DNA of 64,000 nucleotides. Origin: a virus. The notes below the pieces were generated by a model that saw only the letters and a program-made list of their open reading frames with translations, was not told the origin of the DNA and did not search any database. The stretch is from the IMG/VR virus record IMGVR_UViG_3300010885_050383, positions 1 through 64,000 of that record. One strand, written 5' to 3'. Positions 18,234-61,361 of the stretch are shown piece by piece. The position numbers and the translations under genes were made by a program. The stretch's first letter is position 1, and each line of letters starts with the position of its first letter.

Positions 18234-18846
18234 AAAAAGTAAAATATCAGAAGATACTATAAATTATTCTCCAGAAGAAGCGGAGATTTTAGGTATTGAT
18301 CTTGAAGAAGATCTTCCAATTGAAGAAGACATCGAAGAAATCGAAGAAGAAGAAGATTTTGATGCGGAAGAAATTGAGAAAATTATCGTTGAGGATGATA
18401 CAAAACCTAAAAAAAGAGGCAAAAAACCAGATAAAACTAAATTTTATGTAGATCCGAAAGAATTTGATCAACAAATTATAGTTTATTACAACAGTGGAGT
18501 TTTAAACGACGAACTAGCTGAGATGGTGAGTAAGATTGCACACAAACTAAGCTATGCTCCCAACTTTATAAATTATTCGTATAGAGAAGAAATGGTAGGT
18601 GATGGTATTATTAGAATGTTTAAGGCTCTTATGTCTAAAAAGTACAATCATTCTAAGGGTAATAATCCATTTTCATACTTTACCCGAATAGCTTTTAATG
18701 CATTTAGGAATAGAATCAAGAAAGAAAAGCATATTCATGAGACACACGAAAGGTATCAGAATGAGTATTTAACATTTTCTGAAAACTATAACAATATGGT
18801 TAAAAACAACAGAACCAAAATGTATAAAAACAGTCAAGATAGCTAA
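18205..18846 (+). CDS. Late-transcription sigma factor gp55
   Basis: A 213-residue protein from ATG 18205 (MNTPKKKYRK); longer in-frame starts lie inside uvsW. The N-terminal 85 residues are an acidic/basic extension with a long Glu run. The rest resembles T4 gp55 and region 2 of sigma factors: FYVDPKEFDQQI, then ELAEMVSKIAHKL, then YREEMVGDGIIRMFKAL, then FSYFTRIAFNAFRNRI. gp55 directs host RNA polymerase to TATAAATA promoters with the clamp gp45. The order uvsY-uvsW-55-47 is compatible with the T4-type core cluster. Confidence 0.85.
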   Translation: MNTPKKKYRKKSKISEDTINYSPEEAEILGIDLEEDLPIEEDIEEIEEEEDFDAEEIEKIIVEDDTKPKKRGKKPDKTKFYVDPKEFDQQIIVYYNSGVLNDELAEMVSKIAHKLSYAPNFINYSYREEMVGDGIIRMFKALMSKKYNHSKGNNPFSYFTRIAFNAFRNRIKKEKHIHETHERYQNEYLTFSENYNNMVKNNRTKMYKNSQDS

Positions 18847-19898
18847 TGAGTTATTCAATAAAAAGTAATACTATAGGTATATTTTCTGATATTCATATTG
18901 GGCTAGGCCAAGATAGTGTCATGTGGCATGATATTGTTTTGGATTTTGCTAAATGGGCAGCGAAAAAATATATAAAAGCAGGAATCAATGATATAATAAT
19001 TCCGGGTGATATCTTTCATAATAGAAATGAAATTTCAGTTAATACCATAGCAGTTGCTACAGAATTTTTTGACATATTAAAGGATTTTAGAATTTTCATA
19101 TCTGCTGGAAATCATGACAGCTTCTATAAAGATAGATCTGATGTGAATTCTATAAGCATCCTTAAAGGATGGGACAATATTATTATCATTGATAAAAAAC
19201 CTTTGCTTATAAAGGCAGGAGATAAAACTATTTCCCTCATCCCTTGGGGAACTGATATAGCAGATATTCCAGATGCGGACATTTGTTTTGGTCATTTTGA
19301 AATAAACAATTTTTACATGAATAGTTTCAAAACATGTGATCATGGTTTGGAATCAAAAAGCCTTTTAAACATATCACCTCTTATTATTTCTGGACATTTC
19401 CATAAAATGGATCACAGGGTTTATAATAACGGAGAAATTATTTATGTAGGAAGCCCTTTTCAACATAATTTCGGTGATTGTGGTGATAAAAGAGGCATCC
19501 ACATCTTTAATATAAAAACCAATCAGTTTGAATTCATAGAAAACGACATATCACCAAAGCATATTAAAATTTATTTGAGTAAAATTAAAAAAGGAGAACA
19601 AAATTCCGATTTTTTACAATTCAATGTAAAAAATAATCTAATTTCTCTTGTCATAGACGAAGAACTCAGTAGTGAAAAAATAAATTTGCTGAGTTCAAAA
19701 ATAAATTCTTTCAATCCAAAGTTTTTAAGAATAGATTATAAAAATGTTAATAATGAACTTGAAAAAACCGAAGGAGTTGACTATAATACGGTAGACATCG
19801 AAAAAAACCTTGAAGATTTCATAGAATCATTGGATATCAAATATAAAACAGAAACTACCGAATACCTAACACAATTATACAAAAAATTAACATCATGA
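18846..19898 (+). CDS. Recombination endonuclease subunit gp47 (Mre11-like)
   Basis: A 350-residue calcineurin-like phosphoesterase with the Mre11 metal motifs in order: FSDIHIG near residue 13, PGDIFHNR near residue 48, AGNHDS near residue 81, and GHFE plus SGHFHKMD near residues 148 and 180. With gp46 it resects DNA ends for recombination and degrades host DNA. T4 gp47 is 339 residues. Its partner gene 46 is not adjacent but 11.8 kb downstream, beyond the glycan island, and the gp47 stop overlaps the first island gene as ATGA. Confidence 0.9.
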   Translation: MSYSIKSNTIGIFSDIHIGLGQDSVMWHDIVLDFAKWAAKKYIKAGINDIIIPGDIFHNRNEISVNTIAVATEFFDILKDFRIFISAGNHDSFYKDRSDVNSISILKGWDNIIIIDKKPLLIKAGDKTISLIPWGTDIADIPDADICFGHFEINNFYMNSFKTCDHGLESKSLLNISPLIISGHFHKMDHRVYNNGEIIYVGSPFQHNFGDCGDKRGIHIFNIKTNQFEFIENDISPKHIKIYLSKIKKGEQNSDFLQFNVKNNLISLVIDEELSSEKINLLSSKINSFNPKFLRIDYKNVNNELEKTEGVDYNTVDIEKNLEDFIESLDIKYKTETTEYLTQLYKKLTS

Positions 19899-20665
19899 AA
19901 GAAAAAATTTATATTATGGATGAAATTGGAATCGGAATACTTGATGTGTATAGCCAAACCGATTTAGAAAATTGTTATAATTCTATACCAGAAGAGTTCA
20001 GGAATGATGTTCTTGTAGCATCTGCTACAAATAACAAGATGGTAAATGAAAATTTTAAAAAATATGGTGAAGTTCCGTTTGCAACTCTTAGAAATTGGCT
20101 TATTTCTCAGTTCAGACTTAAAGGTTGCAAATATTATTTCCTCATAAGCTCCAATCAGATCATCCAAGATCCAAAAATTTTCTTTAAGACCATCCAGCTT
20201 GCCGAAACTTTTGGCACATGGTTTATTGTAGGAAACGGAAATAATATAACAGAGTTAGAAGATGATGTTTCTGGTATAACTTTGAATGTATCCCCCGATC
20301 TTAACACAGATTTTATTTTTACATTCTCTGGTATTGTTAAAAACAATGGGTTTTTTGATGAAAGATTTTTTAATACCAAAAATCTTGATGTTTTAGATTA
20401 TATAATTCGTTTAAGAGCTAGAGGGGTGTATCCTCCCAACCACTTCAATCCAACTGTTGGAAAAGGAGTAAAAACTGCAAAATCTTTTTTAGAAAAAATT
20501 AAGTTTAAGGATATTCCAGACCGAGATAAGAGTGTTGGACTTTCCTATGCATACTTCAACCATTTACACAAGTATATACCAACACAAAACGATCCTCCAG
20601 CAGTATCACAGGAAGAACTTTTGAAAAGTTTAGATATAATGCAACAAAAATATGCAAAAAAATAA
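19895..20665 (+). CDS. GT-A-fold glycosyltransferase-like protein, degenerate metal motif
   Basis: A 256-residue protein that follows the plan of the next two genes: an N-terminal strand-turn, a YYFLISSNQIIQDP segment where active relatives have EDDI.I.DP, and an FDERFFNTKN..LDY..R..ARGVYPPN segment corresponding to their FDE...EH.D region. The acidic DxD is replaced by SSN, so catalysis is doubtful and it may be an inactive partner. ATG 19895 overlaps the gp47 stop; ATG 19916 is an alternative. It overlaps the next gene by 14 bases. Confidence 0.7.
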   Translation: MKEKIYIMDEIGIGILDVYSQTDLENCYNSIPEEFRNDVLVASATNNKMVNENFKKYGEVPFATLRNWLISQFRLKGCKYYFLISSNQIIQDPKIFFKTIQLAETFGTWFIVGNGNNITELEDDVSGITLNVSPDLNTDFIFTFSGIVKNNGFFDERFFNTKNLDVLDYIIRLRARGVYPPNHFNPTVGKGVKTAKSFLEKIKFKDIPDRDKSVGLSYAYFNHLHKYIPTQNDPPAVSQEELLKSLDIMQQKYAKK

Positions 20666-21479
20666 AATTGGTGTTGGTATAATCACATGTGACCGAGAAG
20701 ATTTTTTTAAAAAAGCAGCAAAAAGTCTTCGTAATGCTTTAGAAAATTATTCAGACAGTGAGATAATCGTTGTGAATGATGGATATGAGAGGTTGGAAAC
20801 GCCAAATATTCATTGTGTTAAAACAACTGGTAAAATCGGAGTAGGTAAAGCTAAAAATATTGCTCTAGATTATCTTATTGATAAGGATTGCGAACATATT
20901 TTCTTGATGGAAGATGATATTGAAATTATAGATCCAAATGTTTTCAATGAATACATTAAAACCTCAAATGTAACAGGAGTTAAACACTTAAACTACGGAT
21001 TGCATGGTAATCATAATCAAGATGCTTATGGAAATCCAACAGTAAGAAAAACTGTTAACTATCCAGATAATACCAAGCTGGATTTATATCCTAATCTTCT
21101 TGGTGCTTTTAGTTATTTTCATGTTTCCGTTTTAGATGAGGTTGGTTTAATTGATGAAGAATTCTATAATGCTATGGAGCATGTAGATCATACATATAGA
21201 ATCATTAACGCTGGTTATCATCCACCATTTCGTTGGTTTGCAGATGTTCATGGTTCCAACAAGATGCTTAAAGACATTGTTCCAGACCACGAGCAAAGTA
21301 AAATTAGAAACGAAGCCAATTTCCAAGAAATCTTTAAGAAAGGACTTGATCTATTCATATGGAAATGGGGATTTAGTGTCGTTCATGGATATGGACCAAT
21401 AGAAAAGAAAATATCAGAACAAGAAACTTTAGAAAAATTAAAACAAATATGGAAATCTCACCAGCAGACATTGGAGTAG
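20652..21479 (+). CDS. Family 2 glycosyltransferase
   Basis: A 275-residue single-domain GT-A enzyme: IGVGIITCDRE at the start, IIVVNDGYE near residue 40, KAKNIALDYL near residue 77, and the metal-binding MEDDIEI near residue 95. A C-terminal FYNAMEHVDHTYRI near residue 170 is the acceptor/base motif. It is a close paralogue of the N-terminal domain of the next gene. Donor and acceptor cannot be read from sequence. Confidence 0.82.
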   Translation: MQKNKIGVGIITCDREDFFKKAAKSLRNALENYSDSEIIVVNDGYERLETPNIHCVKTTGKIGVGKAKNIALDYLIDKDCEHIFLMEDDIEIIDPNVFNEYIKTSNVTGVKHLNYGLHGNHNQDAYGNPTVRKTVNYPDNTKLDLYPNLLGAFSYFHVSVLDEVGLIDEEFYNAMEHVDHTYRIINAGYHPPFRWFADVHGSNKMLKDIVPDHEQSKIRNEANFQEIFKKGLDLFIWKWGFSVVHGYGPIEKKISEQETLEKLKQIWKSHQQTLE

Positions 21480-22939
21480 TGTTAGTAACCTATAACAGAC
21501 CAGAATATTATAAAAAAGTTCTGGAAAGTTTACCAAATGACAAGTTTGATACTCTTGTTGTTGTAAACGATGGGATTAATTCATATGCTAATGAAACAGA
21601 AGCTGAATTTGTTATATTAAACAAAGCTCAACTAGGCGTTGCAAAGAGCAAAAACATAGGAATCAAGACTCTTTTGAATCATGATGATCAGATAAAATAC
21701 GTTTTTATCATAGAGGATGATATTTTAATCAAAGATCCTAATGTATTTGAAGCATATATCAAAGCAGCAGAGTCTACTGGTATTCATCATTTATGTTATG
21801 AGAAAGTTGCTGGTAATGAAAAGACTCTAAAGTACACTTTAGAGCAACCAGATGGGGTTAAAATTGGTTTTTATACCAATCCTCAAGGTGCATTCATGTT
21901 TATCAATGCAAATATTATTAAAAAAGTTGGAATGTTTGATGAAGGCTATACGAATGCTTTTGAACATATTGATTTTGAGTATACTCTTGCCAAAAAAGTT
22001 ATTGCTCCCCCATTTTGGTATTTCCCTGATCTTTTAAACAGCGAAAATTATCTAACAGATATTGAAGGAAGCAGCGAAAACTCTTCAATTACCAATAAAG
22101 ATCAGTATAAAGAGAATTGGGATAAGTCTGCTGCTCATTTTGTTCAAAAGTGGGGTCATTTTACTAATACAATTCCAGATCCGGGTATTAAAATTTTTGA
22201 AAATACACTAATTCATCTTCAAAATTCTTATAGTAGAAAGACTTTGGTCAATAAAGGTCATAAACTCTCTGTTATAATACCCTATAGAAAGCGTGAGGAG
22301 GCTCTAAAAACGATTATTCCTGCTCTGGAGGCATATTTGCCCAAACAAGTGGATAATTATGAGATTTTGATCATGGAACAAGCAAATGAGAACCCTTTTA
22401 ATAAAGGATTATTGAATAATTTAGGATATTCTTTTTCTGCCAAAGATTCTGATTACTTTTGTTTTCATGACGTTGATTTAATTCCTCAATATTCAGATTA
22501 TAGTTATCCAGAAAGACCTTCTCATATAAGCAGTCATTGCAGTCAGTTTAATTATATTAATATACCAGATAAAATTATGGGGGGAGTTATATTATTTAAT
22601 AAAGATGATTATAAAAAAGTTAATGGATATAGCAATCAATTTAATGGTTGGGGAAAAGAAGACGATGATCTTTATGCTCGTTGTGAAAAAGAAAAATTAA
22701 CTCCTTATAAACATCCGTTTGGTAGATTTTATAGCGTTCCTCATCAACATAGGCTTACTTCGGCTTTAGAAAACGAACTTCATTTAAAGAATGGAGAAAG
22801 ATTTCGTGCATTTGAGTCTGGAAAATTAGGAGAGGAATATCATAAATTAGATGGAATTTCAGATTGCATGAGTTATTTGAAAAATATTAAACTAAAAGAA
22901 CAAAAGAATAAAGTTTCTCATTTTGTGGTTGATTTTTAA
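21449..22939 (+). CDS. Two-domain glycosyltransferase: GT2 fused to a beta-1,4-galactosyltransferase-like (GT7) domain
   Basis: A 496-residue fusion. Residues 1-255 are a GT2 domain with VVVNDG, KSKNIGIKTLL and IEDDILIKDP, paralogous to the preceding gene. Residues about 270-465 resemble family GT7: SVIIPYRKREE, then FHDVDLIPQ (DxD), then SHISSH, then GGVILFN, then VNGYSNQFNGWGKEDDD, then a His-rich SVPHQHR. These are the diagnostic landmarks of animal beta4GalT (DVDLIP, GGV, GWG.EDDD). The enzyme could add two successive sugars. It overlaps the previous gene by 31 bases. Confidence 0.85.
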   Translation: MEISPADIGVVLVTYNRPEYYKKVLESLPNDKFDTLVVVNDGINSYANETEAEFVILNKAQLGVAKSKNIGIKTLLNHDDQIKYVFIIEDDILIKDPNVFEAYIKAAESTGIHHLCYEKVAGNEKTLKYTLEQPDGVKIGFYTNPQGAFMFINANIIKKVGMFDEGYTNAFEHIDFEYTLAKKVIAPPFWYFPDLLNSENYLTDIEGSSENSSITNKDQYKENWDKSAAHFVQKWGHFTNTIPDPGIKIFENTLIHLQNSYSRKTLVNKGHKLSVIIPYRKREEALKTIIPALEAYLPKQVDNYEILIMEQANENPFNKGLLNNLGYSFSAKDSDYFCFHDVDLIPQYSDYSYPERPSHISSHCSQFNYINIPDKIMGGVILFNKDDYKKVNGYSNQFNGWGKEDDDLYARCEKEKLTPYKHPFGRFYSVPHQHRLTSALENELHLKNGERFRAFESGKLGEEYHKLDGISDCMSYLKNIKLKEQKNKVSHFVVDF

Positions 22940-22964
22940 TCAAAGTTAAATAATTTTTATACAT

Positions 22965-23510
22965 ATGTCTAAACGTTTATCAATTTTAACTGCTACAATG
23001 CACGAAAGGAACGGAATATTCCGAAATTTGGCAAAAGTATTAAAAGCACAATCTAATTCAAATGTAGAAATGCTTGCTATTTGTGATAATGGGGAATTAT
23101 CCATAGGGGCAAAGAGAAATCAATTGCTAGAAGCTGCCAAAGGCGATTATGTATGCTTTGTCGATGATGATGACATGATTTCACCGTTTTATATTCATGG
23201 TATCCTTACAGCATTAAAGGATAATCCAGACTGCGTAGGAATTGAAGGAATAATAACTAGTATTGGGGTTGGGCCTAAAAAATTTGTTCATTCTTTACAA
23301 TATGTAGATTGGTTTGAAAAAGATAATGTATATTATCGTTGCCCAAACCACTTAAATCCTATAAAAAGAGAAATAGCACTTGATGCAAAATTTCCAGAGA
23401 CATATTTTGGAGAAGATAAAGAATTTTCTCACAGACTTGCTGGAAAGCTTAAAACCGAAGTTTTTATCAAAGGACCCATTTACTTTTATTACCCTTCAAG
23501 AGATTGTTAA
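22965..23510 (+). CDS. Family 2 glycosyltransferase, short
   Basis: A 181-residue compact GT-A enzyme with LSILTATMHERN at the start, LAICDNGE near residue 36, IGAKRNQLLEAAKGDYV near residue 47 and a clear FVDDDDMIS metal motif near residue 65. FGEDKEFSHRL near residue 147 is the acceptor motif. It is shorter than typical GT2 (about 250) but has both key motifs. GTTAAATA at 22945-22952 precedes it, so the 25-base gap may hold an internal promoter. Confidence 0.8.
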   Translation: MSKRLSILTATMHERNGIFRNLAKVLKAQSNSNVEMLAICDNGELSIGAKRNQLLEAAKGDYVCFVDDDDMISPFYIHGILTALKDNPDCVGIEGIITSIGVGPKKFVHSLQYVDWFEKDNVYYRCPNHLNPIKREIALDAKFPETYFGEDKEFSHRLAGKLKTEVFIKGPIYFYYPSRDC

Positions 23511-23511
23511 A

Positions 23512-24855
23512 ATGAAAATTCTAATAAAATTTCCTACAAGGAGTAGGCCAGATAAATTTTTTGCTGTATTGGATCAATATTTAAACAAAGCATCCGATCC
23601 TTCTAAATTAGCATTTTTAATTTCTATGGATGATGACGATTCATCTATGAATAATAATGCAATTAAAATAAGACTCAATTCTTATAAAGAAAAAGTAAAG
23701 ATTGCATATTTTTTTGGAAACAGTAAAACCAAAATGCAGGCAATAAATGCTGATATGGAAAAAGTAAATGGTTGGGATATTGTACTTCTTGCCTCTGATG
23801 ATATGATTCCAATAGAAAAAGGGTATGATGAAGTTATACGTCAAGACATGACTAATAATTTTAATGATACTGATGGAGTCCTATGGTATTCGGACGGAGC
23901 ACAAAATAATATTAATACTCTTTCTATTTTAGGAAAAAAGTACTATGATCGTTTTGGATATATTTATAACCCAGAATACGTGAGTCTTTGGTGTGATAAT
24001 GAATTTACTGATGTTTCTTTAAAGCTTAAAAAATGTTATAAATCAGATAAAATTATTATTGAACATCAACATCCAGCATGGCAAAAAGCAGATTTTGATC
24101 CTTTGTATGCAAGGAATGAATCATACTATGGAGTAGATCAACAGACATATGAAAGAAGAAGTAAAAATAATTTTGACCTTCCTAAAAAGAAACTTATAAA
24201 TTTTTGTGTCTATGGAACACATCCTATGTATAGTATGGGTGCTATCAAAAATATAGAATTGGCTGCAAAAATATTTCCAGATTGGGTTTGTAGGTTTTAT
24301 GTATTCAAAGAATGTTTTGATTTAGTCCCTAAAATACGAGAATATCCTAATACTGAAGTTGTTTTATGCAAGAAAACAGGAAGTCACTATTCAATGTTGT
24401 ATAGATTTTTATCATTTGCTGAAACTGATACCAGTCATTTTATTTCAAGAGATACTGATTCTCGATTAAGCATTAGAGAAAAAGAAGCAGTAGATCAATG
24501 GTTAGAATCTGGAAAGTCGTTTCATATAATGAAAGATCATCCAAAATATCATAGAACTCCAGAATATCCTATTTTAGGAGGAATGTTTGGAGCGAAAGGC
24601 GGAATAGTTCCAGATATAGAAGATCATATAAAATATTACATTCAACATAATGAAAATATGCACGGTATGGATCAATACTTTTTACAATATATCTATGAAA
24701 ATTATGCAATCAATGACAATATTACTCATGACTGCAATTTTCCTTCCCCTAGAAATGTAGAAAGAGATGGTATATGGTTTGTTGGTCAGCCCATAGATGA
24801 AAATAATAAATTTTTTGGTCCTGCGGATCATTACATAGAAACTTTAAATCAATAA
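23512..24855 (+). CDS. Two-domain glycosyltransferase-like protein
   Basis: A 447-residue protein from ATG 23512, one base after the preceding stop; a longer in-frame start inside the previous gene is rejected. Residues 1-220 are GT-A-like (FPTRSRP, SMDDDDSS, LLASDDMIP, WCDNEF.DV). Residues 225-447 form a second domain with YGTHPMYSMGAIKN, SRDTDSRLSIREK, and an ILGGMFGAKGG segment. A domain of this kind with R-D-x-D-S-R occurs in bacterial polysaccharide glycosyltransferases. Both parts have metal-binding acidic motifs, so two transfers are possible. Confidence 0.75.
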   Translation: MKILIKFPTRSRPDKFFAVLDQYLNKASDPSKLAFLISMDDDDSSMNNNAIKIRLNSYKEKVKIAYFFGNSKTKMQAINADMEKVNGWDIVLLASDDMIPIEKGYDEVIRQDMTNNFNDTDGVLWYSDGAQNNINTLSILGKKYYDRFGYIYNPEYVSLWCDNEFTDVSLKLKKCYKSDKIIIEHQHPAWQKADFDPLYARNESYYGVDQQTYERRSKNNFDLPKKKLINFCVYGTHPMYSMGAIKNIELAAKIFPDWVCRFYVFKECFDLVPKIREYPNTEVVLCKKTGSHYSMLYRFLSFAETDTSHFISRDTDSRLSIREKEAVDQWLESGKSFHIMKDHPKYHRTPEYPILGGMFGAKGGIVPDIEDHIKYYIQHNENMHGMDQYFLQYIYENYAINDNITHDCNFPSPRNVERDGIWFVGQPIDENNKFFGPADHYIETLNQ

Positions 24856-24858
24856 ATT

Positions 24859-25485
24859 ATGTATTTTAGTCAACAACAAGAAGATTATATTTTATCACAA
24901 AAATATTTAAATTATAGAAATGGTACATTTGTTGAATTAGGAGCTATGAATGGAGTAACATACTCCAATACTTTATTTTTTGAACAACAATTAGGTTGGT
25001 CTGGCGTTTTAATAGAACCAACAAATCAATTTGAAGAATTGAAAGTTAATAGAAAAAATTGTAAAAACTATAATGTTGCTGTTTCTATTACAGAAGGAGA
25101 AGTAGAATTTTTAGGGTCTGGAGCCGTAGGTGGAATGTTGCACACAATGCCTTCCTTTCATAGAGAAGGTAATGGTTTAAACTCTCATGTACCATTTCGT
25201 GTAAAAACTATGCCTATATCTAAAATTTTAAAAGATGCTGAAATAAAAAAAATAGATTTTTTTTCTATTGATACCGAAGGAGGTGAATTAGAAGTATTAA
25301 GTTCATTTGATTGGAAAATTCCAGTTTATATAATGTTGGTAGAATTTGCAACAGATAGAGAAAGCGATCCTTTTGTTTATAAAAAAAATAAAAAATGTAG
25401 AGATATGCTTGTAGAAAATGGTTTTACTTTTGATATGATTATAGGTTGTAATGAAGTGTGGATTAATAATAATTTTAATAAATGA
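24859..25485 (+). CDS. FkbM-family methyltransferase (first copy)
   Basis: A 208-residue SAM-dependent methyltransferase of the FkbM type: FVELGAMNGVTYSNT near residue 24 (motif I), VLIEPTNQ near residue 51, VAVSITEGEVEF near residue 73, and the family-typical DFFSIDTEGGELEVLSSFDW near residue 133. FkbM enzymes O-methylate sugars or polyketides, so a role in capping a glycan fits the neighbours. It overlaps the next gene by ATGA. Confidence 0.87.
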   Translation: MYFSQQQEDYILSQKYLNYRNGTFVELGAMNGVTYSNTLFFEQQLGWSGVLIEPTNQFEELKVNRKNCKNYNVAVSITEGEVEFLGSGAVGGMLHTMPSFHREGNGLNSHVPFRVKTMPISKILKDAEIKKIDFFSIDTEGGELEVLSSFDWKIPVYIMLVEFATDRESDPFVYKKNKKCRDMLVENGFTFDMIIGCNEVWINNNFNK

Positions 25486-26372
25486 AAAGTATAGTAACAG
25501 GAGGAAAGGGATTTATTGGTAGTAATCTTGTAAAAAAATTAGTCGAGCTTGGAGATACTGTAATTGTTATAGATAATAATAGCTCCAACAACAAAAACAA
25601 CCATATTATAGATGGAGCAATCTACTATGATTATGATTTAAATGAGTTTGATAAAATACTAGGATTATTTGGAGCCGTTGACAGATGTTTTCATCTTGCA
25701 GCAGATATATCAATAGATTATTGTAATAAATTTCCAAGAAAAAGTGGTTTAAATAATACAAATATTACATTGAATGTATTAGAAGCTTGTAGATTGATGA
25801 AAGTAAAAAAATTTATATTCTCTTCTACTTCAGCAGTATATAAACAAATAGATAATAAAAAGATATATAGCGAAACAGATGAAACCAATCCTTTAAATTT
25901 ATATTCGGCATCTAAATTATATGGAGAAAATCTTTGTAAAATTTATTATAACCTTTATGGATTAGAAACAATTGTTTTAAGATATTTTAATGTATATGGT
26001 GAGAATAATTCTATTAGTCCATATTCATCAGTACTTGTAAATTTTCTAAACAATAAAAATCAAGATAAACCATTGTTAATTTATGGAGATGGAAATCAAA
26101 CACGAGATTTTATTAATGTAAATGATGTCGTAAAAATGAATATCATTGCATCAGAATCTAAATTAGAAACATATGGAGATGTTTACAATATAGGAACAGG
26201 GAAATCTATTTCTATTTTAAAATTAGCTTCATTAATATCATCGAATATACAGTTCATGCAACCTAAAATAGGGGAATTAAAGCATAGTTGTGCAGATATA
26301 AATAAAGTTATTAAAAATTTTGCTTGGAAATCTACTATTAGTATTGAAAATTGGTTGAATGCTTGTAGATAA
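25482..26372 (+). CDS. NAD-dependent nucleotide-sugar epimerase/dehydratase (GalE-type SDR)
   Basis: A 296-residue extended SDR. The NAD-binding TGGKGFIGSN is at residues 6-15, VIDNNSS follows the second strand, FSSTSAVY is near residue 114, and the catalytic YSASK motif (Tyr, Lys) is near residue 145. RYFNVYG and GDGNQTRDFINVND are the substrate-side motifs of UDP-sugar epimerases. It probably supplies an activated sugar to the surrounding transferases; the exact sugar cannot be told. Confidence 0.87.
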   Translation: MKSIVTGGKGFIGSNLVKKLVELGDTVIVIDNNSSNNKNNHIIDGAIYYDYDLNEFDKILGLFGAVDRCFHLAADISIDYCNKFPRKSGLNNTNITLNVLEACRLMKVKKFIFSSTSAVYKQIDNKKIYSETDETNPLNLYSASKLYGENLCKIYYNLYGLETIVLRYFNVYGENNSISPYSSVLVNFLNNKNQDKPLLIYGDGNQTRDFINVNDVVKMNIIASESKLETYGDVYNIGTGKSISILKLASLISSNIQFMQPKIGELKHSCADINKVIKNFAWKSTISIENWLNACR

Positions 26373-26375
26373 TAT

Positions 26376-27446
26376 ATGAAATTTTTTAATATTGATCTTC
26401 ATATCTCTATTATTGCTGATATGAAAAAAATTTTTTCGGATCTTGGTCATGAGGTATATGATAAATCTTTATCCGAACATACATGGGTTTTTAATAGAAA
26501 AAAAGACAGTGTACCCATGTTGGATAACGGAAGATGGATGCACCTTTCACCACAACAGTTTTCTGATGAATTCTATAATTCATACAAAAATATGTTTGAT
26601 GATAAGATAGATGCTTTTATAGTAACATATCCACCAGTATTTTCATTATTGTATAAGCATTTTAATAGACCGATTATTATTAATAATCCAATCAGATATG
26701 AATGGCCTTTTTCATTTAGAAAAGATGATTGGGAACAATTTAATGTTTTTTTAAGAGAAGGCGTTGATAACAAGAAAATTTTTCTTGTAGCAAATAATTT
26801 ACACGATAAAAAATATATGGAAGATTTTATCGAAAGAGAAGTAGAACATATTCCAAGTATTTGTGATTACTATGGAGATTATTACGAACCAAACGACAAT
26901 CATTTTATTTATTACTCCAGAAACAAAATATCAGAAATAACAAATGATAAAATTAAATATAAAGATGATATATTTAAATCACATAAACATAGTGATTTAG
27001 TAAATTGTAAAGGAATAATACATATTCCATATCAAATTTCTTATATGTCTATATTTGAGCAATATACAGCAAATATACCATTATTCTTACCCACAAAAGA
27101 ATTTTTAATGGAGATATACAAAGAAAATAAATACAGTGTTCTTAAAGAAGTATCTTGGAACAATTATTGTGGAGAAAAAAGCCATTCCTTTATACAGTAT
27201 AATGGAAAGCATGATCCTAATGATTATAATAATTACGAAGCAGTTGAAGAATGGTTAAAATATGCAGATTTTTATGATCAAGAGTGGATGCCACATATCA
27301 CTTATTTTTCTTCTTTTGAAGAATTAAATAAACTTGTAAATGAAATTGATACTAAAGAAATTTCAAATAAAATGAAAATTTTTAATGAAAAAAGAAAAAT
27401 ATTGATATACAATAAATGGAAAAATCTTATAAACAAAATAAAATGA
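26376..27446 (+). CDS. Unknown protein, possibly a GT-B glycosyltransferase
   Basis: A 356-residue protein starting with FFNIDLHISIIADMKKIFSDLGHEV, a pattern often seen at the N-terminus of GT-B transferases (first beta-strand and helix). FEQYTANIPLFLPTKEFLMEI near residue 228 resembles the C-terminal donor-site region of such enzymes, where a Glu contacts the nucleotide sugar. No classical motif is decisive. It stands between two epimerase genes and ends in an ATGA overlap with the second. Confidence 0.65.
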   Translation: MKFFNIDLHISIIADMKKIFSDLGHEVYDKSLSEHTWVFNRKKDSVPMLDNGRWMHLSPQQFSDEFYNSYKNMFDDKIDAFIVTYPPVFSLLYKHFNRPIIINNPIRYEWPFSFRKDDWEQFNVFLREGVDNKKIFLVANNLHDKKYMEDFIEREVEHIPSICDYYGDYYEPNDNHFIYYSRNKISEITNDKIKYKDDIFKSHKHSDLVNCKGIIHIPYQISYMSIFEQYTANIPLFLPTKEFLMEIYKENKYSVLKEVSWNNYCGEKSHSFIQYNGKHDPNDYNNYEAVEEWLKYADFYDQEWMPHITYFSSFEELNKLVNEIDTKEISNKMKIFNEKRKILIYNKWKNLINKIK

Positions 27447-28468
27447 AAATATTAATAACAGGAGGATTGGGGTTTATAGGAATAAATACAGCATTAACTT
27501 TAGGTAATGAACATGAAATATTTGTTATAGATAATCTTAGTAGAAAAGGAAATATAGAAAATTATATAAACTTAAGAAATAATATTAATTTTACTTTTTA
27601 TAATAAAGATATAAGAAATTATTTTGATTTGGAGGAAATTTTTAAAAGTAATAGTTTTGATGCTATAATACATCTAGCAGGACAAGTTGCTGTTACAAGT
27701 TCTTTTAAAAATCCTAGAGAAGATTTTGAAATAAATTGCCTTGGTACTTTTAATATATTAGAATGTATAAGAAAATACTGTTCTAATGCAGTTTTACTAT
27801 ACTCTTCTACAAATAAAGTTTATGGAGATTTTAAATCAGAAATAGAAGAAAAGGAAAATAGATATATTTATGGTAATGAAATAAATGGCATTAGCGAAAA
27901 CCAACGTTTAGATTTTCATTCTCCATATGGTTGTTCAAAAGGATCTGCCGATCAATATGTCAGAGATTATCATAGAATGTATGGTTTAAAAACTGTTGTA
28001 TTGAGACAATCTTGTATCTATGGTCCAAATCAATTTGGTATTGAAGATCAAGGATGGGTTTCTTGGTTTAGTATAGCTTCTTTATTTGATAAAAATATTA
28101 CTATATATGGAAATGGTAAACAAGTTAGAGATGTACTTCATGTAAAAGATTTAATTGATCTTTATATGAGTGTTATTATTAATATAGATATTTGTAATGG
28201 TAAAATTTATAATGTTGGTGGTGGACCAGACAATACACTTTCATTATTAGAACTATTAGATATTTTAAAAATTAAATTGGGCAAAAATATACAATATAAC
28301 TTTTCTCAATGGAGACCCGGTGATCAAAAAATTTATATAAGCGATATTGAAAAAATAAAAAATGATATTAACTGGCAACCTAAAATTGATGTAAATGCAG
28401 GTTTGACTATAATGTTAGATTGGATTTTAGAAAATAAAGAAGTATTTAAAAAATTAAATTTAATATGA
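27443..28468 (+). CDS. CDP-paratose/CDP-tyvelose 2-epimerase-like SDR
   Basis: A 341-residue extended SDR from ATG 27443, which overlaps the previous stop as ATGA; ATG 27416 upstream is rejected. Motifs are TGGLGFIGINT, YSSTNKVYGD near residue 120, LDFHSPYGCSKGSADQY with the catalytic Tyr-x3-Lys, and RQSCIYGPNQFGIEDQGWV. The last two match the RfbE-type CDP-tyvelose epimerase, which interconverts 3,6-dideoxyhexoses of O-antigens. No CDP-glucose dehydratase or RfbH-type enzyme is in the window, so the substrate is unproved. Confidence 0.85.
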   Translation: MKILITGGLGFIGINTALTLGNEHEIFVIDNLSRKGNIENYINLRNNINFTFYNKDIRNYFDLEEIFKSNSFDAIIHLAGQVAVTSSFKNPREDFEINCLGTFNILECIRKYCSNAVLLYSSTNKVYGDFKSEIEEKENRYIYGNEINGISENQRLDFHSPYGCSKGSADQYVRDYHRMYGLKTVVLRQSCIYGPNQFGIEDQGWVSWFSIASLFDKNITIYGNGKQVRDVLHVKDLIDLYMSVIINIDICNGKIYNVGGGPDNTLSLLELLDILKIKLGKNIQYNFSQWRPGDQKIYISDIEKIKNDINWQPKIDVNAGLTIMLDWILENKEVFKKLNLI

Positions 28469-29088
28469 TTACAATTCAAGAGCATAGTATAGAAGAATCA
28501 ATTATAGATAAAAATGGTTGGGTATTAGATTTGGGATGTATTAACTTTTCTTTTGCTAAAGATTTAAAAGAATATTGTAATAATATTATCTGTGTAGACC
28601 CAAACCCAAACATCGATAAAAATTTAATTCCAGAGGGTGTTATATATGAAAGCGTAGCAGTAACTCATGATGAAAGTTTATCAGAACAAACTTTTTACAT
28701 TTATAATGATGTACAGGGCTATTCTTTATTAAATCCTCCCAAAGATTGGTGTGTTTTACAAAAGACAATAACTGTTCCAGTAACAACCATTAAAAAAATA
28801 ATGGAAAAATACAGTATTAAAAAATTTGAATTGATTAAATTTGATATTGAAGGTGCAGAATATGAGATATTAAAAAATCTAGATTGGTCTTTATCTAAAC
28901 AATATTCTATTGAATTTCATGATTTTAGATTTATGAATCCATACTATCCAGATAATGAAAAATATTATAGTGAAGTTTTTAATAAAATTAAAAATATTAA
29001 ATCTATTAAACATGAAAATACAGATCACCCCGGATTTCCAAATGGAATGGGTAAAAATTACTGGGATACATTAATTGTAATGATTTAA
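28465..29088 (+). CDS. FkbM-family methyltransferase (second copy)
   Basis: A 207-residue SAM methyltransferase. VLDLGCINFSFAKDL near residue 18 is motif I, ICVDPNPN near residue 46 the acidic motif II, VAVTHDES near residue 61, and LIKFDIEGAEYEILKNLDW near residue 128 the FkbM signature. It differs clearly from the copy at 24859, so it is a distant paralogue or a separate acquisition. It overlaps the preceding stop by ATGA and abuts the next ATG. Confidence 0.85.
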   Translation: MITIQEHSIEESIIDKNGWVLDLGCINFSFAKDLKEYCNNIICVDPNPNIDKNLIPEGVIYESVAVTHDESLSEQTFYIYNDVQGYSLLNPPKDWCVLQKTITVPVTTIKKIMEKYSIKKFELIKFDIEGAEYEILKNLDWSLSKQYSIEFHDFRFMNPYYPDNEKYYSEVFNKIKNIKSIKHENTDHPGFPNGMGKNYWDTLIVMI

Positions 29089-30012
29089 ATGAATATATAT
29101 CATAATACAGAAATAGAAGAATTAAACAATATAGATTTATATTCTGAGGGTATAGAAGCAACTGAAAATGCTTTAAAAATAAGCAGGAAAATTAATGAAT
29201 CTATAGATGAAAAGTATAATATATTTGTTTATTGGATAGGATCTAATGTAAATTATAAACATTCGGTAGTATTAAAGTCCTTTTTAGCCACACAAAATTT
29301 AAAGAATGCAACATTAAAAATTTATTCAGATATGGATATATCTAAAAATCCAATATTTGATAGATATAAAAATTTTAAAGAAATAGAATTTAATATTTTT
29401 AATATAGAAGAAGAAATTAAAGGAACTGTTTATGAAAACTTTAAATATATTCAAGAAATAAAAAATCATAATTTTAATCCAGCATATGAATCTGATTTTT
29501 TCAGACTTCTTATACTTCATAAATATGGTGGTTTTTATATAGATTTTGACATTTTATTACTTAGAGATCTTTCTCCTTTACTAAAATATGATTTCTTTTA
29601 TCAATGGGGATCTACTACAAAAAGCATTAATATGCTCAATGGTGCTATAATGCATTTAAAAAAAGATAGCAATGCAAACAACCTTGCTACTCAATATATT
29701 CTAAATAGTTATGCTCGTCCGGGTGCGGGTAGTTTACAGTGGGCATCTGATTTATATTTACAGATTAAAAATCAATGTCCAAATGTTGTGATATTCCCTG
29801 CGGCTTTTTTTAACTCAGAATGGCAACATAACCAACACACAGTAGATGAAGATGGTTTTGTTAAACATAAATTCAGCGAAAACATATTTGATGGAGCATT
29901 TTCTTGGCATTGGCATAATAGATGGGATAAAAATATAGAAGAGGAATCCAAATTTGATATTTTAGATAAAATTTTAGAAAAAAAATTTATTGAAAAGTTT
30001 GAAATTAAATGA
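29089..30012 (+). CDS. GT32-like glycosyltransferase (Gly_transf_sug / DXD family)
   Basis: A 307-residue protein with the GT32 centre: SDFFRLLILHKYGGFYIDFDILLLRDLSP near residue 138, where the DFD is the metal-binding DxD, preceded by a variable N-terminal domain beginning IFVYWIGS near residue 46. A C-terminal AFSWHWHNRWDKN supplies His residues typical of the alpha-1,4-galactosyl/mannosyl group. This family adds hexoses with retention of configuration. Confidence 0.85.
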   Translation: MNIYHNTEIEELNNIDLYSEGIEATENALKISRKINESIDEKYNIFVYWIGSNVNYKHSVVLKSFLATQNLKNATLKIYSDMDISKNPIFDRYKNFKEIEFNIFNIEEEIKGTVYENFKYIQEIKNHNFNPAYESDFFRLLILHKYGGFYIDFDILLLRDLSPLLKYDFFYQWGSTTKSINMLNGAIMHLKKDSNANNLATQYILNSYARPGAGSLQWASDLYLQIKNQCPNVVIFPAAFFNSEWQHNQHTVDEDGFVKHKFSENIFDGAFSWHWHNRWDKNIEEESKFDILDKILEKKFIEKFEIK

Positions 30013-30863
30013 AAATATTAACATCAGATATTTTTTTAGCAGGACAAGATAATTGTGATTGGAAAGAAGGGTGTGAATTTACATATGCTTTTAGAAATTT
30101 AGGACATATATGTCATATAGCAGGAAAAAACTGTAAAATACCAGAATATCAAATACCAAATATTGCACATAAATATGATTTTGCATTAATTACAGAAAAT
30201 TATCCACAACATTCCAATTGGGCATGGTGGGATTGGAGAAGTATAAAAATTCCTAAAGTTTTTTGGGCAATAGATACTCATATAGAAAATTTTTTACCTT
30301 GGATAAAACATGCAAATATAGATTATGTAGCATTTAATAACCCTCAAGACTTAGAAAAATATCAATTACCAAATTCTTTCTGGATGCCATATGCAATATC
30401 AAAGTTACATTACTTGAAACAATATACAGATAAAAAAACAAAAGATTTGGTTTTTATAGGAAAAATGCTTCCAGAAAGAAAACGTATATGTGAAAAATTC
30501 AACATAGAATGTTTAAATGTATATGGACCAAACTATGTAAAAGAAATGCAAGAATCTAAAATCTGCTTCAATCAATCTATGTCTTATGATATCAATGCAA
30601 AGTATTTTGAAATTTTAGGAAGTGGATCATTTATGTTGACCAATTATAATGAACATTTCCATAAATTTGTTGATTATAATGAAGATATAGGTAAAATGTT
30701 TTATTCTTCAGAAGAAGAATTGGAGAAAAAAATAAAATATTATCTAGCAAACGATCAAGAAAGAGAAGAAATTGCTGCTAGAGCAAGAAAATACATAGCA
30801 GAAAACCATACATACGAAAATAGAGCACAATTAATATTAAATAAAATTAATTTATTAAAATGA
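30009..30863 (+). CDS. CgeB-like GT-B glycosyltransferase
   Basis: A 284-residue protein. The N-terminal half has FLAGQDNCDWKEGCEFTYAFRNLGH and VFWAIDTHIENF; the C-terminal half has LVFIGKMLPERK, then YGPNYVKEMQESKICFNQS, then YFEILGSGSFMLTNYNEHF. The last matches the CgeB/Glyco_trans_1_2 donor-site motif (K.fE..a.G...Lt). ATGA overlaps link it to both neighbours. Sugar unknown. Confidence 0.8.
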   Translation: MKILTSDIFLAGQDNCDWKEGCEFTYAFRNLGHICHIAGKNCKIPEYQIPNIAHKYDFALITENYPQHSNWAWWDWRSIKIPKVFWAIDTHIENFLPWIKHANIDYVAFNNPQDLEKYQLPNSFWMPYAISKLHYLKQYTDKKTKDLVFIGKMLPERKRICEKFNIECLNVYGPNYVKEMQESKICFNQSMSYDINAKYFEILGSGSFMLTNYNEHFHKFVDYNEDIGKMFYSSEEELEKKIKYYLANDQEREEIAARARKYIAENHTYENRAQLILNKINLLK

Positions 30864-31678
30864 ATGAAAGAAGATTACATTACGCAATTTATAATTCAGA
30901 AGAAAATTCTTTGATAGGAATACACCAATCTGGATTTTATTCTTGCATAAATTGTTTAAGAATTTCTCTTTATAAATTAATATCTGAAGGAATTTTACCA
31001 AAAAAAATATCTTTAGAAAATACTTTAGATTGGTATAAAGATCATCTCAATCAAGACCTTTATCCTATTTTATACAAAACAGATTTTTCTAAAATAGACA
31101 AAATAAACAAAAACTTTCAATATGAAATGTTTTGTGCAACAGCAGTTAGACATCTTGATCTTGATTTAAAAAATTTTATTCCTATAGAAGAAGTTTACTT
31201 TTTACCTTCAGATATCATTGTACAAAATATATCTACTCTAGAAAAAAAATATAATATAGATTACACAAAAACTCTAGCAGTATTGCATCGTGGTACTGAT
31301 AAACATAAAGAAACCAAACTTTCACCAGTAAATGATTGGATTGAAACAATTGAAAAGTATTATGAAGAAGGACATAAGATTTTAATTCAGACTGATGATG
31401 AAAATGCAAAAAAACAATTTATAGAACATTTTAAAGATCGTTGTTTTACTCTTGAAGAGATGATATATGGAAGCGATCAAAATTCTAATGTAAAACCCCA
31501 TTTCAATAAAACTCAGTGGTCTATAAACTTTGAAAGCGTTATGCATATCATATCTAAATGTAATCGTATGATAAATCATGCAGGAAATGTTGCTATGATA
31601 CCAATTTTATATAGAAAAAGTTTAGTTAAAACGATACAATTTTACAACGGAGAAATTATTGATCACGATAAATTATAA
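30860..31678 (+). CDS. Fucosyltransferase-like protein (GT11/GT23 type)
   Basis: A 272-residue protein, last of the island. LAVLHRGTDKHKE near residue 135 resembles the Hx(R/G)(R/G)-TDK motif of alpha-1,6- and alpha-1,2-fucosyltransferases and NodZ, which bind GDP-fucose. ILIQTDDENAKKQF near residue 172 and FESVMHIISKCNRMINHAGNVAM near residue 226 match motifs II and III. No GDP-fucose synthesis gene is present, so the donor would come from the host. Confidence 0.68.
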   Translation: MNERRLHYAIYNSEENSLIGIHQSGFYSCINCLRISLYKLISEGILPKKISLENTLDWYKDHLNQDLYPILYKTDFSKIDKINKNFQYEMFCATAVRHLDLDLKNFIPIEEVYFLPSDIIVQNISTLEKKYNIDYTKTLAVLHRGTDKHKETKLSPVNDWIETIEKYYEEGHKILIQTDDENAKKQFIEHFKDRCFTLEEMIYGSDQNSNVKPHFNKTQWSINFESVMHIISKCNRMINHAGNVAMIPILYRKSLVKTIQFYNGEIIDHDKL

Positions 31679-31715: not shown

Positions 31716-33524
31716 ATGAAAAAAATAATCTTTACGCAAATAAAAATTAAAAACTTCCTATCTATAGGAAAAAATGAAGTTGTATTAGATTTTTCTTCTG
31801 GTATTAACCTCATAACTGGAGAAAATTACGATAAAGGTGGAAGAAATGGAGTGGGTAAAAGTTCTTTGATCGAATCCATATATTGGTGTTTGTTTGGTAA
31901 TACTATCCGAGATATCAAGAAAGATAGAGTGCTTCACAATCAAAGCAAGAAAGGATGTGAAGTCATCTTGGATTTTGAGATCGAAACAGGAAAGAATAAA
32001 AACGTTTATAGGATCACGAGAAGCCTTGAACCCAGTAAACTCGTTCTAGAGGCTTTCACGGCTCTGCATTCGGATGATATATCACTCTCATCGATGCCTA
32101 AAACAGATGAATATATCAGAGAATTAATCGGAGCAAACGAAGAAGTCTTCCAAAACTCTGTAATCATGACAGCAAACGGAACTATTCCGTTTATGGCACA
32201 AAAGAAAATAGACAAAAGAAAATTCATCGAAGGTATTTTAGACCTTGGCATTTTTGGTGAGATGTTACTGAAAGTAAGAGGAGAATATAATGACAAGAAG
32301 AAAGAAAATGATCTCGTTGGTAAAGATTTTGTGAATGAACAGAGGGTGCTGGAGATACTAAAAGAAAACGAAGAAGGATTTGACGAGAGTAAAGCCAATA
32401 GAATAAAAGTTATTTCTTCTAAAATAGAAGCATCTTCAATAGATCTTCAAAATTTAACCGATAAAAATATTGAAAACGTTTCTTTACTCAAAGACAAGAT
32501 AAAAACTCACGAAGAAGAGATAGAAGTCCTTGAAGAACTTATAGATAAGGCAAATAAAAAAGCAGTAAACTTTAGAGATAAGAAAATAGAATTACAAAAT
32601 ACTATTACGCAAGCAAAAAAAGAAAAACAAAAAATTTTAGATAAAGGAAATACATGTCCTACCTGCAACAGAGATTATTGCGAAGATGATTTAAGTCATA
32701 TTGAAGCCGAAATTAAAAGACTTGATGATATAATCAGTACTAACACTCCTGTTTACGAAGATTATGTCAAAAAAACCGACCAAACAATTGAACTTGGTCT
32801 AGAAAACAAAGAAAAGTTAGAGTCTACGAAGAAAGAAATAAAAAAAATCAATCAAAGTATATCAGAAGCATCTTTACATGAGCAAAAAATGAAAACTTTG
32901 ATGGATAAGATCGAAGAATATAAAGAAAATATTAAAGATATTGAAAATGAATCATTCAAAGATGATAAGAAAATAGAAAATTCAGAAGAAAAAATTGAAA
33001 ATTTAGAAACCAAGATAGAATCTTTACAAAAAGAGTTATTGATTCTTGAAAATGCAAAGTTTGTTGTTTCTGAAGAAGGTGTGAAGACTTTTATTGTCAA
33101 AAAAATGCTTAATGTTTTAAATTCGCAACTGAATTATTATCTTAAAGCATTGGAAGCTCCTTGTAGTTGTTATTTCGACGAAATGTTTGAAGAAACTATC
33201 TACAATGATGCAGGGAAAGAGTGTTCTTATTTTAATTTTAGTGGAGGAGAACGAAAAAGAATAGATGTGGCAGTGCTTTTTACCTTTCAAGACATTTTGA
33301 GAAGCCAATCAGGGACTTCGTTTAATCTTAACATGTATGACGAGCTTTTAGATGCTGGTTTGGATGATAAAGGAATTGAAAAAACGTTAGATATACTCCG
33401 TGAAAAGGTCAATAAATACAACGATGCAATTTATATTGTAAGTCACAAGACTTCTACCAAAAACAATATAGATAATGTGATTTTATTGAAAAAAATTAAG
33501 GGAACTACGAGTATAGCTAGTTGA
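31716..33524 (+). CDS. Recombination endonuclease subunit gp46 (Rad50-like)
   Basis: A 602-residue SMC-like ATPase. Walker A GGRNGVGKSSLIE is near residue 42, a central coiled coil spans about 180-450 with a zinc hook CPTC near residue 311, the ABC signature NFSGGERKRID is near residue 508, and Walker B-like NLNMYDELLDAGLD near residue 538. It pairs with gp47 to process DNA ends. T4 gp46 is 560 residues. It lies on the far side of the glycan island from gp47. A 37-base gap separates it from the island. Confidence 0.92.
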   Translation: MKKIIFTQIKIKNFLSIGKNEVVLDFSSGINLITGENYDKGGRNGVGKSSLIESIYWCLFGNTIRDIKKDRVLHNQSKKGCEVILDFEIETGKNKNVYRITRSLEPSKLVLEAFTALHSDDISLSSMPKTDEYIRELIGANEEVFQNSVIMTANGTIPFMAQKKIDKRKFIEGILDLGIFGEMLLKVRGEYNDKKKENDLVGKDFVNEQRVLEILKENEEGFDESKANRIKVISSKIEASSIDLQNLTDKNIENVSLLKDKIKTHEEEIEVLEELIDKANKKAVNFRDKKIELQNTITQAKKEKQKILDKGNTCPTCNRDYCEDDLSHIEAEIKRLDDIISTNTPVYEDYVKKTDQTIELGLENKEKLESTKKEIKKINQSISEASLHEQKMKTLMDKIEEYKENIKDIENESFKDDKKIENSEEKIENLETKIESLQKELLILENAKFVVSEEGVKTFIVKKMLNVLNSQLNYYLKALEAPCSCYFDEMFEETIYNDAGKECSYFNFSGGERKRIDVAVLFTFQDILRSQSGTSFNLNMYDELLDAGLDDKGIEKTLDILREKVNKYNDAIYIVSHKTSTKNNIDNVILLKKIKGTTSIAS

Positions 33525-33560: not shown

Positions 33561-34883
33561 ATGATTAAAATTAAAAACGCACCAAAAGTTCCTGAAAAAA
33601 ATACATCTAATAGCATTGTATACGAGTATAGACCTGTAGCAACCAATATTCCTAATGCTCCACAAGGTTTACCAATTGGAACTCCTACCTATAGCTATGT
33701 TTCTCCTGTACCAGTAAGCATTCCAACCCCTCCAGCAGTAGAAATGCCCGAATTAAGCCTTCCTAGAGCTATCAATTACTATGCTGACTATGGTGGTTGT
33801 GGTTACTGGAGAATGATTTGGCCTGAATATGTACTCAATAGTTATCAGAAAATGTGTATTTCAGGGTTAACTGCAATGGTAATGGATGTAAGATTTTACC
33901 AAGGCATCTCTGCAATAAGAATGCAGAGACAAGCAACCCCAATTCAAAATGCTTTTATCAAAGAATTGAAGAAAGCACAAAAGGATTTTGGTTTCAGACT
34001 GCTTTATGAGGTAGATGATATTGTTTTCAAGGATGATATTCCAGATTACAATCGTTGTAAGGAAGCATTCGTAAGCCAAGAGATCATCGATAATATTCTA
34101 GACATCATGTCCAACATGGATGAGATAACTGTGACATGTCAATACATGAAAGATTACTATATCAATAAAACAGGTAATAAAAATATTACAGTTATTCCCA
34201 ATTACGCACCAAAATTCTGGCTTGATAGGTTTTATGACAGAAAACGTGTGGAAGAACTCTATGATAGGCATAAAAAGCGTCCTAGAATCCTTTATTGCGG
34301 TTCTGGAACCCATGTGGATTACATTAACAAGACAGGAATGAACGATGATTTTGCTCATGTTATTGAAGACATCATCAAAGCAAGAAAGAAATTCAAATTT
34401 GTATGGAAAGGTTGCTTCCCCCTTGCTGTAAAACCATTTATCGACAATGGAGAAATGGAATTTATTGATTGGTCACAGCTTATGGATCTTCCACAGGACA
34501 TTTATAAGATTGGAGCCAATGCAACATTTGCTTCATTACAAGATAATATCTTTAATAAGTCCAAGAGCAACATCAAAATGGTTGAGTCTGGAGCATTTGG
34601 TATGCCCGGAGCCTATCAAGATCTCTGTACATATGATGGAGCAGATTTTAAGTTTAAATCTGGCAAAGATTTAATCGATCAACTCGAATATATCACATCT
34701 GATTTTGATAGATACATGAAATTCTCTGATAAATCTCGTAAATTTACCGAAGGTCTTTGGTTAGAAGACCATATGGACGAATACCAAGCATTATATACAA
34801 CAGCATGGGGATCAAAAGAAAGAAAAGAAATGGCTCCCTTGTTGATTGCAAACAATTTAGATCAAGATTTAATTGACGATTAA
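33561..34883 (+). CDS. GT-B-type glycosyltransferase of phage replication region
   Basis: A 440-residue protein with a Pro-rich N-terminal 75 residues, then YGGCGYWRMIWPEYVLN, LLYEVDDIVF near residue 157, TVTCQYMKDYY, VIPNYAPKFW near residue 211, and a C-terminal domain beginning RILYCGSGTHVD near residue 246, with FKFVWKGCFP, and KSNIKMVESGAFGMPGAY near residue 336. This is the two-Rossmann-fold plan of GT4 enzymes with the Glu-containing donor motif. Target unknown. It stands between genes 46 and 43. Confidence 0.78.
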   Translation: MIKIKNAPKVPEKNTSNSIVYEYRPVATNIPNAPQGLPIGTPTYSYVSPVPVSIPTPPAVEMPELSLPRAINYYADYGGCGYWRMIWPEYVLNSYQKMCISGLTAMVMDVRFYQGISAIRMQRQATPIQNAFIKELKKAQKDFGFRLLYEVDDIVFKDDIPDYNRCKEAFVSQEIIDNILDIMSNMDEITVTCQYMKDYYINKTGNKNITVIPNYAPKFWLDRFYDRKRVEELYDRHKKRPRILYCGSGTHVDYINKTGMNDDFAHVIEDIIKARKKFKFVWKGCFPLAVKPFIDNGEMEFIDWSQLMDLPQDIYKIGANATFASLQDNIFNKSKSNIKMVESGAFGMPGAYQDLCTYDGADFKFKSGKDLIDQLEYITSDFDRYMKFSDKSRKFTEGLWLEDHMDEYQALYTTAWGSKERKEMAPLLIANNLDQDLIDD

Positions 34884-59536: not shown

Positions 59537-59541
59537 ACAGA

Positions 59542-59549
59542 TACTTAAT
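59542..59549 (-). promoter_or_regulatory. Late-promoter-like ATTAAGTA
   Basis: Weaker match, 5 bases before the start of the 59536 gene. Confidence 0.3.
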
Positions 59550-59568
59550 CTATATACATTCTTTTAAA

Positions 59569-60369: not shown

Positions 60370-60371
60370 GT

Positions 60372-60379
60372 TATTTATA
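60372..60379 (-). promoter_or_regulatory. Late-promoter-like TATAAATA before gp26-type gene
   Basis: Exact T4 late core, 2 bases before the ATG at 60369. Confidence 0.45.
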
Positions 60380-60388
60380 ATTACTCAC

Positions 60389-61330: not shown

Positions 61331-61361
61331 TATTATATCTTACCAAAAGAAACAATTTATT

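Follow-up and report, generated by a model that had tools for sequence, protein, structure and literature searches.

A glycan-gene locus of exchangeable content between genes 47 and 46 in a lineage of uncultured T4-type phages

We analyzed bases 1 to 64,000 of a 73,875-base virus record from an uncultured phage (IMG/VR record IMGVR_UViG_3300010885_050383; this stretch is hereafter called the window), in which an island of 13 open reading frames (ORFs) related to glycan synthesis lies between the recombination genes 47 and 46. Comparison with related phages showed that this island belongs to a polymorphic locus found throughout the lineage: a core set of genes adjoins gp47, a conserved GT4-type enzyme follows gp46, and the cargo between the core and gp46 is exchanged. 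The target of the putative glycan is probably the virion.

The 80 best-matching gp46 of the 448 found in IMG/VR were taken as relatives. Complete 47–46 intervals were compared for the window and 37 relatives (gp46 42–71% identical), and all 38 contained glycan genes, over 5.7–16.7 kb (11.8 kb in the window). An earlier sequence-only reading of the window had regarded the island as an insertion peculiar to this phage; a recent phage-specific insertion is ruled out, because an island was present in each relative whose interval was resolved. In T4 and in cyanophages, the gap between genes 47 and 46 holds one or two tiny genes; in two cyanophages, it holds a single small gene, encoding a DUF3110 domain in one of them. 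The window keeps the uvsY-uvsW-55-47-46 order of the T4-type operon, the same as in cyanophages P-TIM68 and S-SRM01, but with 11.8 kb instead of tiny genes between 47 and 46. A tblastn search with a single query of concatenated gp47 and gp46 matched 3827 cultured records at 3852 places; only 25 places are extra, so that few cultured records would have the two genes far apart, a count limited by the insensitivity of the search to divergent gp47. No description of a 47–46 glycan locus was found in a literature search covering mainly open-access papers.

The 38 intervals contain 443 ORFs, 434 of them on the operon strand. At 35% identity and 60% coverage, they fall into 167 families, of which 106 are singletons; these absolute numbers depend on the thresholds, and the sharp DNA breaks described below do not. 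The families of genes 1–4 (occupancies in Table 1) and of the N-terminal domain of gene 5 (16 of the 38 intervals) are found on the gp47 side, and the gp46 side is variable. Hence, it is true of core genes 1 and 2 that the close relatives carry the same genes in this place, which the sequence-only reading had named as evidence against itself, and clearly untrue of the cargo. On a tree of gp46 and gp47, core families F2–F4 require 5–8 changes, compared to 12–13 for shuffled labels; no cargo family was clearly different from shuffled labels, though small families give this comparison little power.

Cargo is exchanged in whole cassettes, whose breakpoints fall within core genes and either at the start of gp46 or close to it. 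Phages L125 and L127, whose gp46 and gp47 are 97.7% identical, share two cargo families: their DNA is 93% identical over 5.4 kb comprising gene 47 and the core, essentially unrelated over ~5–6.5 kb, and then 95% identical. L105 and L044 (97.6% identical in gp46 and gp47) share a single cargo family, and homology resumes at the start of gp46. In both pairs, the flanking DNA is 91–96% identical on either side of a sharp break. In the more distant pair L043 and L129 (89%), the break falls within gene 2 and the sequences rejoin at gp46. Conversely, the window has no cargo family in common with its closest complete relative, L051 (71% backbone identity), but six in common with L125 (56%), with genes 7–12 being 68–85% identical and their order altered. 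Over all pairs, backbone identity and cargo overlap were almost uncorrelated (Spearman 0.08).

Among 146 family representatives from the islands, Pfam assignments were most often FkbM methyltransferase (13), GT2 (11), Methyltransf_24 (10), epimerase (7), and exostosin GT47 (7), with GT10, GT11, GT25, GT6, GT61, and others being rarer. A set common to L043, L134, and L136 (L043:11109–15694) comprises a SIS isomerase, a transaldolase, a GHMP kinase, a cytidylyltransferase-like enzyme, and an epimerase, which together look in L043 like a phage-encoded heptose-nucleotide pathway.

A few genes within the islands are on the opposite strand. One, in the G003 island (L039:7262–7825, 19% GC), is endonuclease VII-like and absent from the near relative G002; it is possibly a mobile endonuclease. 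Others, at L045:1910–7508 and L127:5053–6366, belong to no recognized family, and two of those in L045 have 37–39% GC, well above their surroundings.

In the window, ORF layout and family searches bore out the thirteen same-strand genes, nearly all for glycan enzymes, that the sequence-only reading had described (Table 1). Its two epimerases (genes 7 and 9), two FkbM methyltransferases (genes 6 and 10), and GT32-like enzyme (gene 11) were recovered, and the multi-sugar, methylated product that it expected agrees with the gene content. Its count of six or seven glycosyltransferases was probably too low, as many as nine of the 13 genes resembling such enzymes. ATGA-type overlaps of 4 nt account for only 5 of the 14 joints, fewer than the majority it had claimed; the others are overlaps of 14, 31, and 31 nt or gaps of 0–37 nt. 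Because no gap exceeds 37 nt, the assignment of the island to the 47–46 operon stands. The GC content is 25% in genes 6–13 and 31% in genes 1–4 and gp46.

Table 1 Genes from 47 to the approach of 43 in the window.
Feature	Coordinates	Strand	Assignment and remarks
gp47 (Mre11/SbcD-type), left flank	18846..19898	+	Weak metallophosphatase match; clear gp47 homologues in relatives; 4-nt overlap with gene 1
Gene 1, core (37/38 intervals)	19895..20665	+	GT-A fold; conserved Ser-Asn replacing the acidic EDD of paralogues
Gene 2, core (36/38)	20652..21479	+	GT2-like glycosyltransferase, EDD motif
Gene 3, core (19/38)	21449..22939	+	GT2 fused to GT7 (beta-4-Gal/GalNAc-transferase type); HDVD and GWGKEDDD intact
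Gene 4, core (15/38)	22965..23510	+	Short GT2-like glycosyltransferase, DDDD motif
Gene 5	23512..24855	+	Two-domain glycosyltransferase, core domain + cargo domain; ORF open from 23383
Gene 6, cargo	24859..25485	+	FkbM-type O-methyltransferase
Gene 7, cargo	25482..26372	+	NAD-dependent sugar-nucleotide epimerase/dehydratase
Gene 8, cargo	26376..27446	+	Unassigned; context suggests a glycosyltransferase; found in other phage lineages as well
Gene 9, cargo	27416..28468	+	Putative CDP-tyvelose 2-epimerase-type enzyme
Gene 10, cargo	28465..29088	+	FkbM-type O-methyltransferase
Gene 11, cargo	29089..30012	+	GT32-like glycosyltransferase (DXD sugar-binding region)
Gene 12, cargo	30009..30863	+	GT-B type glycosyltransferase (PF13524)
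Gene 13, cargo	30860..31678	+	Fucosyltransferase-like by invariant HRGxDK motif only
gp46 (Rad50/SbcC-type), right flank	31716..33524	+	AAA_23/SMC_N
Glycosyltransferase between gp46 and gp43	33561..34883	+	PHROG 7162; GT-B/GT4 fold

Gene 1 had no match in the family searches. Its predicted structure (predicted local distance difference test, pLDDT, 93.5) matched GT-A enzymes in Foldseek, with E-values from 5e-7. Across 37 homologues, the DXD/EDD metal-binding motif is absent, and its place is taken by Ser86-Asn87, each at least 85% conserved, where paralogue gene 2 has EDD. Gene 1 may encode a non-catalytic partner or a metal-independent enzyme. The catalytic motifs of genes 2–4 are kept.

Gene 5 likely starts at 23512, directly 3′ of gene 4. 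The alternative start at 23383, which would overlap gene 4 by 128 nt, was rejected as mis-set, and a tblastn match upstream of 23512 was attributed to the conserved end of gene 4, echoed in another frame. The two glycosyltransferase domains of gene 5 are two separate genes in relatives, and gene 5 looks like an in-frame fusion of a core and a cargo glycosyltransferase, with ~0.6 kb lost relative to L098. It looks, in other words, like a core/cargo recombination joint kept within a gene.

Among solved structures, the best homologues of gene 9 are CDP-tyvelose 2-epimerases (4.3e-104 and 3.5e-93, compared to 5e-40 for the next family), on which its putative assignment is based. As to substrate the assignment is putative, because the T. 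atlanticus enzyme converts CDP-glucose to CDP-mannose (PMC13098431). The best cellular relatives among the loci returned are at most 57% identical (a Pelagibacter metagenome-assembled genome), and phage copies reach 84%; no recent cellular donor of the cassette is thus seen. Relatives of gene 8 occur in L138–L142, phage records in which this gp46 has no match; the 183-kb record L138 has homologues of genes 8, 9, and 12, and L139 of genes 8 and 9, so that cassette genes cross phage lineages. For gene 13, the motif supports the fucosyltransferase-like label given by the sequence-only reading, but no family match lay above the cut-off, and a PDB sequence search gave no usable match.

The island had been thought to end at 31678, but another glycosyltransferase lies beyond gp46. 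This enzyme follows gp46 in all relatives whose sequence reaches this site. Within the lineage, it is 62–78% identical in a sample and 89% identical in L002, which exceeds the conservation of gp46. A tblastn search found no match to it in cultured phages, and a PDB sequence search no usable one. Its AlphaFold model is of low confidence (pLDDT 58), though Foldseek consistently returned GT-B enzymes, mostly GT4.

The window carries a T4-type myovirus gene set, with uvsY, uvsW, a gp55-like sigma factor, gp47, gp46, and gp43 in the order uvsY-uvsW-55-47-[island]-46-43, and uvsY to 46 on one strand. RecA/UvsX and DnaB-type genes were assigned by reading and from their homologues in relatives. Also present are gp32, terminase, and baseplate-hub genes and, further on, a tail-sheath-like gene assigned by reading. 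Judged by its sequences, this phage is without a close relative among cultured phages. The 47–46 region had no nucleotide match among them, gp46 matched 3519 cultured-phage records but with at most about 30% identity to the best cultured phages among the matches listed, and gp43 is ~31% identical to cyanophage gp43. T4 late promoters (TATAAATA) were uninformative, with 13 in the window and 16 expected by chance. Shine-Dalgarno sites precede 2% of the window genes of at least 100 amino acids (4% when shuffled), compared to 19–23% in two cyanophage stretches (8–10% when shuffled). Their near-absence in the window would fit a Bacteroidota host.

Two other stretches of the window stood out. A minus-strand reading frame of at least 1754 amino acids (1–5262) runs off the contig start and contains repeated tailspike-like stretches, such as WGTKGDGLTDDT and WGAKGDGVTDDA. 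A second low-GC stretch (24–25%) with strong negative GC skew is found at 59001–62000, where the minus-strand genes include a baseplate-hub gene.

To what acceptor the glycan would be attached was judged from the distribution and nature of the enzymes. The inner enzymes are conserved across 42–71% gp46 identity, and the outer ones differ on near-identical backbones, which argues for a phage-encoded acceptor and for selected variation of the outer sugars. By hydropathy, the window island has no transmembrane segment, only 5 of the 443 proteins of all islands have a strongly hydrophobic stretch (weak candidates), and neither a flippase, polymerase, or Gtr protein nor any other protein clearly embedded in the membrane was seen in the islands. 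This distinguishes the locus from gtr O-antigen conversion and Wzx/Wzy loci, and leaves glycosyltransferases without membrane export, as in a virion glycosylation system. The sequence-only reading had named the virion, the phage DNA, and the host surface as possible targets; the evidence favors a phage-encoded acceptor and disfavors both T-even-type DNA glucosylation and a flippase- or polymerase-dependent surface polysaccharide.

We therefore lean, if only slightly, towards a lineage-wide polymorphic locus that makes a glycan of conserved inner and exchangeable outer sugars. Its acceptor would be encoded by the phage and is most likely a virion protein. In the cytosol, the inner glycan would be built by the core enzymes together with the one encoded after gp46; the cargo would then add outer sugars that vary and are in part methylated. 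Expressed from the replication/recombination operon, this machinery would already fill the cell when virions begin to assemble. If new outer sugars are selected for and co-infecting phages recombine in the conserved flanks, glycan "serotypes" would arise within a phage species. The fuller version, in which a serotype-like locus of lytic phages recombines its outer-glycan alleles between the core and gp46 and gene 1 serves as a scaffold or acceptor-binding partner, is more tentative, and we rate it at somewhat less than an even chance.

Several points weigh against this reading. The phage is uncultured, so that the acceptor, the glycan, and the expression of the locus are predictions from its genes, and the catalytic role of gene 1, which lacks the usual acidic motif, is putative. 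Soluble transferases can modify lipid A-core at the inner membrane, which makes the absence of membrane proteins compatible with a host-surface target, and a place in the replication operon points to early or middle expression, a timing equally suited to modifying the host surface. DNA may also be glycosylated by a route other than PF00303; Tet/JBP dioxygenases (PF12851) had no match in 19 records, a search in which the control genomes likewise had none.

The main rival is that the enzymes alter host lipopolysaccharide (LPS) or lipooligosaccharide (LOS) core or another surface glycan and block the adsorption of competing phages, with alleles tracking competitors and receptors. Such remodeling has been proposed for pelagimyophage glycosyltransferases (PMC7029224), the cargo families GT25, GT10, and GT11 are frequent in LOS and O-antigen synthesis, and the operon position suggests early expression. 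We nevertheless consider it unlikely, though a serious contender, as flippase, polymerase, Gtr-type, and other clearly membrane-embedded proteins are absent, and as the same inner enzymes recur in widely divergent phages with presumably different hosts, which would be unexpected for a host-specific acceptor. It is less probable still that the sugars are placed on modified bases of the phage DNA against restriction, the alleles varying in an arms race with modification-dependent nucleases. That the locus lies among replication genes would suit this explanation, diversifying selection would be expected under it, and hypermodification of DNA by phage glycosyltransferases, with glycans of diverse kinds, is known (studies cited in PMC12619734). 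However, the thymidylate-synthase/dCMP-hydroxymethylase family PF00303 had no match in 26 records, several of 163–227 kb and possibly incomplete, with the control matching in nine genomes. Nor did any window protein match a known DNA-glucosyltransferase family, and 13 genes with sugar-nucleotide synthesis and methyl capping exceed the needs of known DNA glycans.

The site might also have no single function and be an insertion-tolerant gap that collects unrelated accessory genes, with glycan genes common there through chance or supply. The large share of singleton families and the endonuclease-like and unrecognized opposite-strand inserts of a few relatives are what such a gap would show. An orientation shared by nearly all ORFs, recognizable content that is almost wholly glycan chemistry, a core adjoining gp47 conserved in 37 of the 38 intervals, and the catalytic motifs kept in genes 2–4 make it the least probable of these explanations.

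Virion glycosylation in mycobacteriophages relies on few enzymes per phage; the present locus, within the 47–46 operon, differs in having many genes, 13 of them in the window, and in providing for sugar-nucleotide synthesis and methyl capping. Mycobacteriophage glycans are carried by capsid and tail-tube subunits (Freeman et al. 2023, via PMC12619734), the type of acceptor proposed here. Together with chlorovirus capsid N-glycans, they would appear to be the nearest precedents. In chloroviruses, virus-encoded glycosyltransferases build an elaborate glycan on the major capsid protein of PBCV-1, with a conserved five-sugar core and antigenic variants (PMC7826918 and PMC9614988). The difference is that these are viruses of eukaryotic algae with an identified capsid acceptor, whereas the virion acceptor here is a proposed one. 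Bacterial O-antigen and capsule loci likewise have conserved flanks around a central allelic glycan block and a variable part of lower GC (25% vs 31%), but the present locus is in a phage genome and has neither export nor initiating membrane proteins; the resemblance is one of behavior, not membership.

Among large aquatic phages, the moraphages are jumbo phages with T4-type structural and replication genes, four core glycosyltransferases, and predicted Bacteroidota hosts, with which the missing Shine-Dalgarno sites of the window would agree; their authors suspect islands whose composition varies and defer these to later study (PMC12619734). In the available text of that paper, the glycosyltransferases are not placed between 47 and 46. 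The HSP70 and glutamine synthetase reported in moraphages were found in none of 17 records of this lineage, which are partial, and not all moraphages need them; this lineage may or may not belong to that group. Pelagimyophages, also aquatic and T4-type, have many variable glycosyltransferase genes, often placed beside the tail fibers in the host-recognition cluster (63 of 162 LPS-related proteins; PMC7029224) and otherwise in small clusters. This is unlike the fixed recombination-operon site, conserved core, and clean cassette replacement found here.

Many phages encode glycosyltransferases, but what these enzymes act on is mostly obscure, and they are usually treated singly or in small numbers. 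The locus described here points to many uncharacterized sugar-transferring and sugar-methylating enzymes. With it, selection for phage-made sugars becomes testable, allele pairs such as L125 and L127 being natural experiments. If the serotype-like reading is true, phages of one species would differ in their virion glycan as bacteria do in their O-antigen, with some alleles bringing whole sugar-nucleotide pathways.

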